Shown in pieces: positions 2,289 through 60,759 of a stretch of DNA of 64,000 bases. The notes below the pieces were generated by a model, which saw nothing but the letters and a program-made list of their open reading frames with translations, was not told the DNA's origin and did not search any database. The position numbers were made by a program, and so were the translations under genes. The DNA comes from a virus. The stretch is from positions 1 to 64,000 of the IMG/VR virus record IMGVR_UViG_3300032268_001483; one strand, written 5' to 3'. Each line of letters starts with the position of its first letter. Positions within the stretch are counted from its first letter, which is position 1.

Positions 2289-3518
2289 ATGGACTTCAAT
2301 ACGATTTTAAATACCGGCTTAATATTTTCAGCTATCACCTACTTGGGATATCAATTAAGAACAATTCCCGAACTAATATGGAGTTTCATCAAAAGAAAGA
2401 TTACCTTCAACTTAACAATAGTAGAAACTGATGAACTCTACATCTATATGGAAAGATGGCTTCTACACAATCATAAAAATTCATATAGAAATGTAGAAGC
2501 TTCACTTTCTCCACAAAAGTTCAATTCAATGGACATATCACATGAAGAAACATCCGACCCAACAAAAGATGAAGATAAGCTACATCTTTGGCAATTTTCT
2601 GATAATTTCTTTATTCACTATCGCAATAGAAGAATCCTAATATCAAAAGGTAGAGAAAAATTAGAAGGGGCAAAAGATTTAAGAAATGCCTTTCTAAATA
2701 GCTTCACTATCAGTGGTATCTTCGCTAAAAAATCTATACTAAAGTTAATAGAAGAAGTAATACAATTCAACCAACAATTCAAAAAAGAAAGATTCCCAAG
2801 AATCTATACAAATACAGATTGGGGTGAATGGCAATTCTCTGGTGACAATTACTCTAAAAGTTTTGATAACATCTTCTTTAAAGATAAAGAACTTCTTATA
2901 TCAGACATAAATAACTTTTTAGAGAATAAGACGTGGTATCAGAAAAGAGGTATACCCTATAAAAGAGGTTATCTTTTTTATGGTCTTCCAGGAAATGGCA
3001 AAACTGCCATCGTTCAAGCTATTGCTAGGCACTTCAAAAAAGACATCTATTATATCTCACTTGGTAATATAGAAAGTGATTCTAATTTATCAAGACTTTA
3101 TTCAAATATGAAGTTTGGTTCCCTAGTAGTATTTGAAGATGTAGATGCTTACTTTGAAGGTAGAAAAAACAATAAAGAAAAGGGAATTTCTTTTTCGATG
3201 CTACTTAATTGCCTAGATGGTATATTTTCACAATCTGGGACAATTACGATTATGACTACTAATCATCCAGAGAAATTAGATCCTGCCTTAATCAGACACG
3301 GTAGAATAGATGTTAAAATGGAAATTACTAATCCGAATGGTGAGGAAGTTAAAAAGTATCTTCAAAACTTTTATGAAGTTGAATCTATCCAAGATTTAAG
3401 TTATTTAGATGGTAGTTTATCTATGGTGCAAATTCAAGATATTTGTTTATTGAATAAAGACTCATTAGAAAATACCCTAAATACAATCAACCAAATGATT
3501 GTCGCAGAATTGGTTTAG
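2289..3518 (+). CDS. BCS1-like AAA ATPase
   Basis: The protein has an N-terminal hydrophobic segment (about residues 6-26), a middle region unlike other proteins here, and a C-terminal AAA module. Walker A is GLPGNGKT at 232-239, Walker B is LVVFEDVD at 279-286, and a C-terminal RHGRID carries the arginine finger. The order membrane anchor, BCS1-type region, AAA domain matches the BCS1/AAA family, whose mitochondrial member is a membrane translocase chaperone. Related AAA proteins occur in large phages, where their role is not settled. It has no CTS-like tag. It may remodel phage or host protein complexes at the membrane (inference). Confidence 0.85.
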   Translation: MDFNTILNTGLIFSAITYLGYQLRTIPELIWSFIKRKITFNLTIVETDELYIYMERWLLHNHKNSYRNVEASLSPQKFNSMDISHEETSDPTKDEDKLHLWQFSDNFFIHYRNRRILISKGREKLEGAKDLRNAFLNSFTISGIFAKKSILKLIEEVIQFNQQFKKERFPRIYTNTDWGEWQFSGDNYSKSFDNIFFKDKELLISDINNFLENKTWYQKRGIPYKRGYLFYGLPGNGKTAIVQAIARHFKKDIYYISLGNIESDSNLSRLYSNMKFGSLVVFEDVDAYFEGRKNNKEKGISFSMLLNCLDGIFSQSGTITIMTTNHPEKLDPALIRHGRIDVKMEITNPNGEEVKKYLQNFYEVESIQDLSYLDGSLSMVQIQDICLLNKDSLENTLNTINQMIVAELV

Positions 3519-3577: not shown

Positions 3578-3883
3578 ATGAAAAAAATAAAAGATTGGAA
3601 AAAATTCAATGAATCTTTTGAATCCGATGAATTAGATGAGTTATATGACCAGGGAGCTGAAGCAATTAGTGCTGCCGCTGATTACTTAGCCACTCAAGGC
3701 ACTGAGGAATGGAACGATATAAATAATGGTGATCCATTCATTGTGATAAATATGTTAAGAGAGGATGGATCGGAGGAAGCTTTAAGTATTGCTGACGAGA
3801 TTGAATCTATTAATAATCAAATAGCAGAGATAGAGGGAAATTTGGATGATGATTATTATGATGAAGATTATGATAATGAATAA
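3578..3883 (+). CDS. Small acidic tagged protein
   Basis: A 101-residue unknown protein. It opens with MKKIKDWKKFNESFES, a clear CTS-like tag, and the rest is strongly acidic, ending in an Asp/Glu/Tyr-rich tail. The next tagged gene starts 16 bases after its stop, and a third overlaps that one, so the three form one operon. Small acidic proteins with such a tag resemble T4 internal proteins in layout but no sequence family was recognised. Confidence 0.65.
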   Translation: MKKIKDWKKFNESFESDELDELYDQGAEAISAAADYLATQGTEEWNDINNGDPFIVINMLREDGSEEALSIADEIESINNQIAEIEGNLDDDYYDEDYDNE

Positions 3884-51616: not shown

Positions 51617-52657
51617 ATGGATTATTATGACATTTTAGGAGTAACCAAGGGAGCGTCACCCGATGAAATAAAACGGGCTTTTCGAAAAAAAGCTGTTGAA
51701 CATCACCCGGATAAGGGCGGAGACGAGTCTAAATTCAAGGAAATATCAGAAGCTTACGAAACTTTATCCGATGAAACAAAACGTGGAGAGTATGATAGAT
51801 TCGGAAAATCTGGAAATCCATTCTCAGGGAGAGGTGGGGGACACGGGTTCAACATGGATGATATCTTTAGTCAATTCGGAGACATGTTTGGCGATGGATT
51901 TGGAAGACAACAACATCAACACCCACCAAAAAGGAGGGGTAATGATTTAAGAGTACAGATTCAAGTCACCATCGAAGATATACTTTTTGGATCTTCTAAA
52001 AAATTAAAATTTAAAAGACAAACACCCTGTCAACCTTGTGGTGGAAAGGGTGGCACTGGTAAAAAATCTTGCCCACATTGTAATGGATTCGGTAGAAAAA
52101 ACATCACACAACATACACCCTTTGGTGTAATCACTTCTACCCAACTTTGTAATAATTGTGAAGGCACTGGACAAGTGATTTCAAATCATTGCCAAACCTG
52201 TAAAGCTTCTGGTACAAATGCAGTCGAAGAAACAATCGATATTAATATACCAAAAGGTGTTAGTAATGGAATGTCATTAATCATGGATGGTTATGGTAAC
52301 CACGTAAGAGACGGTATACCTGGAAATCTACAAGTGATTATTAGTGAGGTTCCGGATCAGAAATTCAAACGCGAAGGGAATGATATAGTCTATGAACATT
52401 CAATTACAGTACCTCAAGCCGTTTTGGGTTCTAAAGAAACTATCCAAACATTAGAAGGCAATTTATCAGTAGATGTAAATCCAGGATGTGAAAGCGGTAA
52501 AGTATTTAGTTTTCCTGGAAAAGGAATTCCAATTTTATTAAACAATGGAACAAATAGTGGTAGAGGCGCTCTCTATGTGAAGGTAAATGTTAAAATTCCT
52601 AAAAATATTTCAGAAGAACAAAAGGCACTTTACCTACAATTAAGTAAATTTGACTAA
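51617..52657 (+). CDS. dnaJ: DnaJ co-chaperone
   Basis: A complete DnaJ of 346 residues. J domain at 1-65 with HPD at 30-32, a Gly/Phe-rich linker (GRGGGHGF), four Cys-x-x-Cys-x-Gly-x-Gly zinc repeats (CQPC, CPHC, CNNC, CQTC) around 125-190 and a C-terminal beta-sandwich substrate domain. It stimulates DnaK ATPase. Together with GrpE it may redirect the host DnaK to phage protein folding. G/F linker is short. Confidence 0.95.
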   Translation: MDYYDILGVTKGASPDEIKRAFRKKAVEHHPDKGGDESKFKEISEAYETLSDETKRGEYDRFGKSGNPFSGRGGGHGFNMDDIFSQFGDMFGDGFGRQQHQHPPKRRGNDLRVQIQVTIEDILFGSSKKLKFKRQTPCQPCGGKGGTGKKSCPHCNGFGRKNITQHTPFGVITSTQLCNNCEGTGQVISNHCQTCKASGTNAVEETIDINIPKGVSNGMSLIMDGYGNHVRDGIPGNLQVIISEVPDQKFKREGNDIVYEHSITVPQAVLGSKETIQTLEGNLSVDVNPGCESGKVFSFPGKGIPILLNNGTNSGRGALYVKVNVKIPKNISEEQKALYLQLSKFD

Positions 52658-52671
52658 AAGAGATTTAAAAA

Positions 52672-52683
52672 GTTAATATATAC
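52672..52683 (+). promoter_or_regulatory. Phage-type promoter element for a small RNA
   Basis: TTAATATATACT with no ORF behind it before the terminator at 52743-52771. Transcription should start near 52688-52692. Confidence 0.55.
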
Positions 52684-52689
52684 TTTATA

Positions 52690-52771
52690 TCTAAAACCAC
52701 ATTTTAGGACCGTGGTTACGCACCGGGCAGGTGTCAGCTAAAAACCCAGACTTCGCTCCTCTGGGTTTTTT
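52690..52771 (+). ncRNA. Small RNA with H-type pseudoknot and terminator
   Basis: Stem A: AACCAC (52695-52700) with GTGGTT (52712-52717). Stem B: TTTTAG inside its loop (52702-52707) with CTAAAA (52738-52743), making a pseudoknot. Hairpin C: GCACC (52720-52724) with GGTGT (52730-52734). Terminator: AACCCAG (52743-52749) with CTGGGTT (52761-52767) and seven T. CTAAAA also occurs at 52691-52696, so TTTTAG has two possible partners. Promoter at 52672. It may be a free small RNA or a riboswitch-like leader for the gene at 52836; the terminator makes the first simpler. Confidence 0.7.
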
Positions 52772-52835
52772 CATTTTAAAACTTTTTTAAATTTATAAAT
52801 ACATTTAGTACTATTATTAACTTAAATATTATTTT

Positions 52836-53144
52836 ATGAAACACGAATTGAAAATTGAATTCAAAGAAAAGAGTCAACTCGAAGAAGTAATCCAAGGTTC
52901 CTACTTTAACGAATCCAACAACGGTAAACTAATTGGAAAAAAACACTCAATTAATATAAACCAAGAAGATCCACTTTTTATAGCCTTTAAAGGGCTAAAC
53001 AATAACACTGTCAAACTAATTAATGAAGAAATGATTGAGGGTTCTATGCGATGTATAGTAGTACAAGAAAATGACTCCTACATCGAATTATTTCCAATCA
53101 ATAACTACTGCATCATTCAAGAAAAAAAATACTCATTCTATTAA
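52836..53144 (+). CDS. Hypothetical protein, 102 aa
   Basis: Starts MKHELKIEFKEKSQL; the first residues look like the tag but the F-E-x-F core is absent, so I do not count it as tagged. Beta-rich. Followed directly by the GMP reductase gene. Confidence 0.5.
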   Translation: MKHELKIEFKEKSQLEEVIQGSYFNESNNGKLIGKKHSININQEDPLFIAFKGLNNNTVKLINEEMIEGSMRCIVVQENDSYIELFPINNYCIIQEKKYSFY

Positions 53145-58950: not shown

Positions 58951-60759
58951 ATGAATACGATACTTCAAGATATAACTAACAGAACTTCCAATATAGGGTC
59001 ACTTGTACTCCTGGTAAAAAATAATTCTGAATACTTAGATTTTATTAATCATAATGTTCCAGAATCTATTTTAGATAGACAGCTATCTGAAAAAATTTAT
59101 TATTTAGTTAATAATATAAACACACCTCAGTTATGTAGATGTGGAAAACATCTATCTTTTATTGGCTTTAAAAATGGTTATAGAAAGAGTTGTGGTGATA
59201 GGGAATGTTATGTGAGTTCAAGAAAAGAAACTTGTATTGAAAAGTTTGGTGTAGATAATCCAAAAAAATCTAAAGAAATTTTGGAGAAAGAAAAAGAGAA
59301 CATTCGTAAAAAATGGAATGGTGAACATTTCATGCTGAATAAAGACATAAAAGATAAGTTTAAGAAAACAATGATTGATAACTGGGGAGTTGAATGGGCT
59401 CAACAAAACAAATCTATTAAAGATAAATCCCTAGAAACTTGGAATAATAATCCAGAAAAGGTGAGTGTAATAGAATCGAGAAAAAATAAATTATTGAAAA
59501 AATCCGATGAGGAGAAAAGTATCATAGAAAATAAAAAAAGAGCAAAGATAATTGATAAATTCAGTACCTATGAAAACTTCATAAATTTCAGAAAAGAAAA
59601 GATTGAAGAGGCTTCTATAGAAAAGTATGGAACTCAACACCATCTTTCTTCTCCAGAAGTAATTAAATTGAGAATTGATAAATATAAAGAAAAAATCACC
59701 CAAAAGATTTTAGAGAAATTACCCAATACTTTAACTTATTTAGATAGGTTTCATAATAAGAATCTTACTGACCACTACATTAAATTGCATTGTCAAAATT
59801 GTGATAGTGAATTTTCTATAACAAGACAATTATTAGTAAATCGAATTAACTCCGGAATAGAAGTGTGTTTGAATTGTAATCCAATATTAGTTGGTAAGTC
59901 TAAAGGAGAAGAAGAAGTATTTGAATTTATATCATCAATTTATAGTGGACAAATTTTACAGAGATATAGAATTGATGGAAAAGAAATTGACATTTACTTA
60001 CCGGATTTGAAAATAGGATTTGAATATAATGGACTATTTTGGCATTCTAACTTACACAAAAGCTCACAATTTCATTTAGAAAAAACAAAATTTTTTGAGG
60101 AAGTTGGAATTAAATTAATTCATATTTGGGAAGATGATTGGTTATATAAAAGGGAAATTATAAAATCAATAATATCAAATAAGATAGGTGCTACTAAAAA
60201 TAAAATCTTTGCAAGAAAATGTCAGGTAAGAGAAGTTGATAATAGTCAAGTTCGTAGTTTCTTGGAAAGTAATCACATACAGAGCTTTGTGGGCTCACGA
60301 GTTAAACTTGGACTTTTTTATAAAGATGAATTAGTTAGCATAATGACTTTCGGTAGTCTTAGAAAATCTTTAGGTTATAACAATGTCGAAGGCAATTGGG
60401 AATTGTTGAGATTTTGTAATAAATTAGATTGTTCTGTAGTCGGTGGTGCCTCTAAATTATTCAATTATTTCTTGAAAGTATGGAAGCCAAGTCAAGTCAT
60501 AAGTTTTTGTGATTATAGTAGATCAGATGGGAATATCTATAAAACTTTAGGATTCGAGTTACAACATCTTTCAACTCCTAACTATTACTACATCGTAGAT
60601 AGTGTTAGAAGACATAGATTCAATTATAGAAAGGACAAATTAGTTACTAATGGATCTGATTCTAATCTAACAGAATCACAAATTATGCAAAATTTAGGTA
60701 TAAATAAAATTTATGACTGTGGTATGCAGAAATGGATTTTTATCCGAATTGAAAGTTAG
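58951..60759 (+). CDS. EDxHD-type homing endonuclease (I-Bth0305I-like)
   Basis: A 602-residue protein. A zinc-ribbon-like LCRCGKHLSF with CGDREC lies near residue 75. Repeats with NUMOD-like YGTQHHLSSPEV and FGVDNPKKSKEI follow, then CQNCDSEF with CLNC, then a nuclease core: IDGKEIDIYLPDLKIGFEYNGLFWHS and KLIHIWEDDWLYKRE. A C-terminal domain (GLFYKDELVSIMTFGS to SFCDYSRSDGNIYKTLGF) is a common partner in this family. Free-standing homing endonuclease. Its end overlaps the convergent tagged gene by 20 bases. Confidence 0.85.
   Translation: MNTILQDITNRTSNIGSLVLLVKNNSEYLDFINHNVPESILDRQLSEKIYYLVNNINTPQLCRCGKHLSFIGFKNGYRKSCGDRECYVSSRKETCIEKFGVDNPKKSKEILEKEKENIRKKWNGEHFMLNKDIKDKFKKTMIDNWGVEWAQQNKSIKDKSLETWNNNPEKVSVIESRKNKLLKKSDEEKSIIENKKRAKIIDKFSTYENFINFRKEKIEEASIEKYGTQHHLSSPEVIKLRIDKYKEKITQKILEKLPNTLTYLDRFHNKNLTDHYIKLHCQNCDSEFSITRQLLVNRINSGIEVCLNCNPILVGKSKGEEEVFEFISSIYSGQILQRYRIDGKEIDIYLPDLKIGFEYNGLFWHSNLHKSSQFHLEKTKFFEEVGIKLIHIWEDDWLYKREIIKSIISNKIGATKNKIFARKCQVREVDNSQVRSFLESNHIQSFVGSRVKLGLFYKDELVSIMTFGSLRKSLGYNNVEGNWELLRFCNKLDCSVVGGASKLFNYFLKVWKPSQVISFCDYSRSDGNIYKTLGFELQHLSTPNYYYIVDSVRRHRFNYRKDKLVTNGSDSNLTESQIMQNLGINKIYDCGMQKWIFIRIES

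Follow-up and report, generated by a model that had tools for sequence, protein, structure and literature searches.

A small structured RNA of a huge phage is a candidate antisense RNA against the helix 69 to helix 71 region of host 23S rRNA

We analyzed a 64,000-nucleotide stretch of viral DNA (the window; positions 1 to 64,000 of IMG/VR record IMGVR_UViG_3300032268_001483, a 117-kb virus record). By sequence comparison, a 100-base unit in the window is a genuine RNA gene of ~83 nt that has a phage-specific promoter and a strong terminator, and its complementarity to one region of bacterial 23S rRNA is beyond chance. The unit probably encodes a small, structured, trans-acting antisense RNA that would bind host 23S rRNA at the intersubunit bridge region of the 50S subunit (helix 69 [H69] to H71). 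23S rRNA is well supported as the target; transcription, binding, the effect, and its timing are what we infer from there.

RESULTS

The unit is an independent small RNA gene

The unit sits between dnaJ and a gene for a 102-amino-acid (102-aa) protein (Table 1), and no open reading frame (ORF) of ≥40 aa covers it. Its promoter element carries the motif TTAATATATA, found 23 times in the 117-kb record. Twenty of these sites lie ≤70 nt upstream of a gene start, compared with 34% of shuffled 10-mers, and the small-RNA unit is one of the three that do not. The motif is also found 5′ of most of the RNA homologues described below and of many genes in related phages. The expected start of the RNA was placed by comparison with those genes that have their ATG 14 to 18 nt past the start of the motif. 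Some of the 23 sites are merely 14 nt from the ATG, and mRNAs made from such sites are possibly leaderless.

The fold of the unit is better than that of shuffled sequences (z = −2.4). A search of the window against Rfam 15 gave no family at the gathering score and no riboswitch. When the unit was compared with phages by BLAST, the only matches resembled promoters and terminators. The original prediction, made from the letters of the window, was of an ORF-free small RNA with a phage promoter element, an inner hairpin (hairpin 2 in Table 1), and a strong terminator; each of these features is supported by the statistics above or by the homologues.

Table 1. Features of the small RNA unit and its neighbors (positions in the window; 23S rRNA positions in E. 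coli numbering)
Feature	Position	Strand	Description or basis
dnaJ	51617-52657		Pfam DnaJ
Phage promoter element	52673-52689	+	TTAATATATACTTTATA; motif TTAATATATA, statistics over genomic sites
Expected transcript	about 52686/52690 to 52771	+	start inferred
RNA gene	52688-52772	+	extent by family covariance model R1, E = 1e-11, window in training set
Hairpin 1	52695-52717	+	AACCAC/GTGGTT, 11-nt loop ATTTTAGGACC; predicted fold, homologues
Antisense block 1	52704-52713	+	TTAGGACCGT; exact complement of bacterial 23S 1919-1928 (H69 3′ strand and flank)
Antisense block 2	52715-52719	+	GTTAC; complement of 23S 1910-1914 (H69 5′ strand)
Antisense block 3	52720-52737	+	GCACCGGGCAGGTGTCAG; complement of 23S about 1826-1843, just 5′ of H68
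Hairpin 2	52720-52734	+	GCACC/GGTGT, loop GGGCA; also within antisense block 3
Hairpin 3/intrinsic terminator	52740-52770	+	11-bp stem AAAAACCCAGA/TCTGGGTTTTT
Terminator loop (9 nt)	52751-52759	+	CTTCGCTCC; consensus N-UUCGCU(A/C)C
102-aa protein gene	52836-53144	+	associated with the RNA; homologue ≤ about 1 kb from the RNA in relatives

Homologues in related huge phages conserve the hairpins and not the pseudoknot

Homologues of the RNA are present in about ten related huge phages. The sequence TTAGGACCGGTATAGTTTAG occurs in a similar unit of two of them, and further homologues came up when the terminator loop TTCGCTCCT was used as a query. A covariance model, R1, was built from seven sequences, the window included. 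R1 recovered several members that had not been used to train it: G005 (E = 4.9e-14), LR756502 (4.4e-12), LR745206 (7.1e-12), G011 (5.3e-11), and, more weakly, LR756501 (1.6e-4). No R1-type RNA was detected among 61 Bacteroidota genomes in a search that carried no positive control.

Eleven distinct sequences fold alike: hairpin 1, which has UUAGGA or UUGGGA within or next to its loop, is followed by hairpin 2 and by a terminator whose 11-bp stem closes a 9-nt loop. The stem of hairpin 1 is ACCGG/CCGGT, TCCG/CGGA, or ACCG/CGGT in homologues, flanking the same UUAGGA segment. In the terminator stem, all 77 of 77 cells are paired across seven sequences, with five pairs changed on both sides, a result matched by none of 500 shuffles. 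The terminator loop is constant in length and nearly so in its letters in all members, while its stem varies. Changing stems with conserved loops are the mark of a target-binding RNA.

An H-type pseudoknot had also been predicted, formed by AACCAC (52695-52700) with GTGGTT (52712-52717) and TTTTAG (52702-52707) with CTAAAA (52738-52743). These letters are present, but the pseudoknot as a structure is not supported. The CTAAAA/TTTTAG pairing is missing from the ten homologues, all of which have lost the pseudoknot. The pseudoknot helix is broken among relatives by substitutions without compensation, the pattern that the prediction itself had named as counting against it, whereas hairpins 1 to 3 are compensated. 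Pseudoknots of this kind (6 + 6 bp) are not rare: 17 of 2000 shuffles contain one, as do 54 of 1559 stretches taken from the same window. The 3′ strand of this one overlaps, and so conflicts with, the terminator stem. A second CTAAAA (52691-52696), proposed as an alternative partner in a two-state switch, does exist, but the switch falls with a pseudoknot that is neither conserved nor rare. A kissing interaction between loop 1 (GGA) and loop 3 (UCC) of one molecule was considered separately and rejected, because five members have UAC instead and still match 23S rRNA.

The core of the RNA is complementary to 23S rRNA domain IV

What the original prediction missed is that the core of the RNA, TTAGGACCGTGGTTACGCACCGGGCAGGTGTCAG, is the reverse complement of blocks of 23S rRNA domain IV (E. 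coli numbering, anchored by GGTCC at 1921). The three blocks are collinear with the rRNA and skip the loop of H69 (about 1915 to 1918) and the whole of H68 (about 1844 to 1908). Block 3, GCACCGGGCAGGTGTCAG, is exactly complementary over 18 nt to CTGACACCTGCCCGGTGC, a form shared by many Bacteroidota 23S genes. It is the sole rRNA match of >15 nt in the 117-kb record, the next longest being 15 nt. The sequence TTAGGACC, with A or G as its third base, is kept in homologues. The GC content of the core is 61%, compared with 29.7% for the genome.

A chained alignment of the RNA to 23S rRNA scored 30.8, compared with 17.2 ± 1.8 for shuffles (maximum, 25.9; n = 1000). Given its 18-mer, a test of the flanks on the window alone was modest (z = 2.0). 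Joint folding of the RNA with 23S rRNA predicted pairing on both sides of a closed H68. The complement lies on the strand of the promoter, the terminator, and the neighboring gene, and the transcript would therefore be antisense to the rRNA. The 18-mer has two exact matches in viral contigs, L001 and L002, and both are coincidences in coding sequence.

Across the family, the best pairing run against H69 to H71 averages 15.7 nt; shuffles give 10.4 nt, and 57 other windows along this rRNA locus average 11.1 nt (maximum, 12.6 nt). A loop form present in five members, UUCGCUAC, is the exact complement of 23S 1930 to 1937. In four of the 11 sequences (G006, G001, G004, and LR756502), the contiguous run is weak (12 to 13 nt), and some of these runs are outside the core loop, so the antisense evidence rests on the family rather than on each member.

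Other phages carry elements antisense to the same region

Viral contigs were searched with the seeds CACCGGGCAGGYGTCA and GAATTTCGCTACCTTA, and phage genomes were searched with the complement of H69 to H71. We collected 55 noncoding loci antisense to the same 23S region, which form 22 sequence clusters, this window included; all seeds came from domain IV, so the target preference of these loci is read within that domain. Most elements found with the second seed have a terminator downstream on the antisense strand, and some elements are located in tRNA clusters. Several join two or more 23S blocks in order with rRNA hairpins skipped, as in L143, which combines 13 nt of 1965 to 1977 with 20 nt of 1924 to 1943. 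Elements were found in the isolates Roseobacter phage CRP-7, Vibrio phages PWH3a-P1 and R16F, Rhodococcus phage Trina, and Staphylococcus phage SpP. Against Rfam 15, the class B and L092 loci and the other elements gave no match except to tRNA and tmRNA genes nearby.

R1 recognized none of the elements of these other phage classes, which are accordingly best read as analogous elements, from repeated origins of one target choice, or as very distant kin. Across the window RNA and the other elements, the variable bases fit the presumed host group: GGTGTCAG agrees with Bacteroidota, GGCGTCAGA in the roseophage with alpha, and GGCGTCACAC in L092 with beta/gamma, the hosts of the window phage, L092, and the metagenomic phages being presumed. 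Because H69 to H71 hardly varies, such host-matched changes are few and covariation of RNA and target is not measurable; the matched bases could also reflect a recent origin from host rRNA.

The searches also returned matches that were set aside. L105, L107 to L111, and L114 to L116 are chance matches in unrelated sequence, as are most of the CACCGGGCAGGYGTCA matches located in long ORFs. Many INPHARED matches (H119 to H138, Paenibacillus phage Pd_22F among them) are contamination with host 23S sequence. L058 and L059, matches in genome contigs, are 23S genes rather than homologues of the RNA; they come from a Prevotellaceae MAG and a Firmicutes MAG, and H68 is wholly missing from them (L058:4000-4060, also L120, and L059 about 3660 to 3720), through either a natural deletion or an assembly fault.

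Some observations concern the surroundings of individual elements. The CRP-7 element is immediately upstream of the terminase gene, and the annotated start of the terminase large subunit overlaps it (MK613349.1 54353; L117:2597); this start is probably annotated too far upstream. The anti-23S contigs L141 (7531-7734) and L172 (6539-6864) also carry a tmRNA, permuted in L141, and L172 has a large tRNA array. In L162 (9675-9850), an anti-23S element, GAATTTCGCTACCTTAG, that has a CCACCGGGCCGGTG hairpin is directly upstream of an apparent tRNA gene.

A gene for a 102-aa protein accompanies the RNA

Each RNA-bearing relative that was examined also has a homologue of the 102-aa gene about 1 kb or less from the RNA, mostly in divergent orientation. 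Since the gene is transcribed away from the RNA in most relatives, the RNA cannot be its 5′ leader. One phage (L023/G020) has the 102-aa gene with no RNA detected. The protein has a confident predicted fold (pLDDT of 90) and belongs to no known family. In a fold search, its one clear match was an unnamed marine-phage protein; solved structures matched weakly, several RsmE rRNA methyltransferases among them (E = 0.25 to 0.8, not significant).

In related phages, the RNA is some 3 to 10 kb from dnaJ. The position between dnaJ and an early-type gene, which had been offered as a clue to function, is not conserved. A regulatory role, as predicted, is still probable, but ligand binding or control of guaC is not borne out, given the lack of an Rfam riboswitch in the window and the divergent orientation of the RNA and the conserved gene in most relatives. 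Elsewhere (L051:9003-10850 and window positions 2289-3518 and 58951-60759), the phage encodes an SIS/GATase enzyme similar to glucosamine-fructose-6-phosphate aminotransferase, an AAA ATPase of the BCS1-like type, and a homing endonuclease.

DISCUSSION

Intersubunit bridges B2a and B3 are formed by H69 to H71, elements of the subunit interface that also touch tRNA in the A and P sites; H69 itself forms bridge B2a and touches both tRNAs. In the mechanism that we propose, the hairpin loops and single strands of the phage RNA would present the complement of domain IV from H69 to H71, with the loops UUAGGACC and UUCGCU as the presumed 23S-contacting parts and, in the window phage, a third block that would pair just before H68. 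The RNA would pair loop to loop and loop to strand with H69 to H71, exposed either on free 50S subunits or on 23S rRNA during assembly, and H68 would stay closed, as a three-way junction. Formation of 70S ribosomes or assembly of the large subunit would then be blocked, and host translation would be lowered or redirected during infection. Mutations in H69 block translation or 70S assembly (PMC1190176), and a peptide nucleic acid (PNA) against H69 inhibits growth of E. coli, according to a passage in PMC7038079 that cites Kulik 2017; we therefore propose that the phage RNA may limit subunit joining or assembly. Phages themselves need ribosomes, so a general inhibitor would have to act late, locally, or selectively.

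Pairing with 23S rRNA could instead serve protection or remodeling, with the RNA shielding H69 to H71 from an antiphage nuclease or toxin or aiding rRNA folding. We consider this unlikely, although the evidence for the target is the same as for an antisense inhibitor and the frequent location of elements of large phages in tRNA/tmRNA clusters suggests support of translation. A bacterial nuclease that attacks H69, Ribocin, has been described, acting on eukaryotic ribosomes (PMC13189344). If the RNA paired with H69 on both strands and across the base of H68, however, it would disrupt the active fold.

A single system uniting the RNA with the 102-aa protein, in which the 23S complementarity would be a guide or sensor, is slightly more doubtful; it would be either a ribonucleoprotein or a control pair. 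The constant proximity of the gene to the RNA and the faint resemblance of the protein to RsmE rRNA methyltransferases would fit such a system, but the fold matches lack significance and the gene is found in L023/G020 with no detected RNA.

A relic at the DNA level, either a captured rRNA fragment or a homing endonuclease target of the I-CeuI type without RNA function, is very improbable. The I-CeuI site, which we take to span about 23S 1911 to 1937, would fall in the same stretch, and homing endonuclease genes are nearby in some phages. Such a relic would not account for a conserved promoter and terminator, compensated stems with constant loops, blocks that skip rRNA hairpins, or recurrence in unrelated phages, there too on the antisense strand. 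We give still less credence to a plain dnaJ transcription terminator with a chance likeness to rRNA: the terminator is real and is downstream of dnaJ, but the unit has its own promoter and an 18-nt exact match with collinear flanks, and homologues with the same loops lie kilobases away from dnaJ. Last comes the ligand-binding pseudoknot or two-state switch acting on guaC or the early gene, whose paired segments exist in the window sequence but which the homologues largely refute, the structure being unconserved, common by chance, incompatible with the terminator stem, and without an Rfam match; in most relatives, moreover, the RNA and the conserved gene point away from each other.

We therefore return to the antisense RNA as the preferred reading and compare it with known systems. 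As in trans-acting antisense small RNAs (sRNAs), the unit is an independent noncoding transcription unit (promoter, terminator, and no ORF of ≥40 aa) with complementarity beyond chance to a target encoded elsewhere (23S domain IV); the conserved aptamer in the 5′ leader of a controlled gene that defines a riboswitch is not found. DicF and the sRNAs of lambdoid phages are trans-acting antisense sRNAs of bacteria and phages. The phage RNA resembles them as a short structured RNA with its own promoter, a Rho-independent terminator, and target pairing by exposed loops. To our knowledge, however, the antisense sRNAs of bacteria and phages target mRNAs or other sRNAs, whereas this RNA appears, by its sequence, to be aimed at 23S rRNA.

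Small nucleolar RNAs and archaeal C/D guide RNAs, themselves small, likewise carry elements antisense to rRNA, in some cases to H69. In contrast to these, the phage RNAs occur in phages of bacteria and are complementary to both strands of an rRNA hairpin, which is unlike the guiding of modification, and the window gave no match to the C/D or H/ACA guide families included in Rfam. T4 RNAs C and D are also small, stable phage RNAs beside a tRNA cluster; their pairing energy with 23S rRNA, a blunt measure, was no better than that of shuffles. A natural antisense RNA to an rRNA is known in chloroplast AS5, which is directed against 5S rRNA and destabilizes that rRNA when overexpressed (PMC3017836); AS5 is chloroplast encoded, whereas the phage RNAs would act in trans from phage genomes on 23S domain IV. 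The synthetic anti-H69 PNA that, in the passage of PMC7038079 cited above, inhibits E. coli growth binds the same helix, and the phage RNAs would be its natural counterpart. Neither in Rfam 15 nor among the open-access papers searched did we find a natural RNA family, phage or bacterial, that targets rRNA by antisense pairing.

From the sequences of these loci, we lean slightly toward the view that small RNAs antisense to the H69 to H71 bridge have arisen repeatedly in the phages of many groups of bacteria and would control large-subunit assembly or subunit joining. If so, phages of Bacteroidota, Roseobacter, Vibrio, Rhodococcus, and Staphylococcus would have a direct point of attack or control on the ribosome at the RNA level, which would help to explain phage takeover of translation. 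Part of the orphan noncoding RNA in huge phages and in the tRNA clusters of phages would gain a name, and the RNAs would offer a natural design for antisense agents against H69. These findings suggest that viruses may use RNA to grip the host ribosome and disable or reprogram it.
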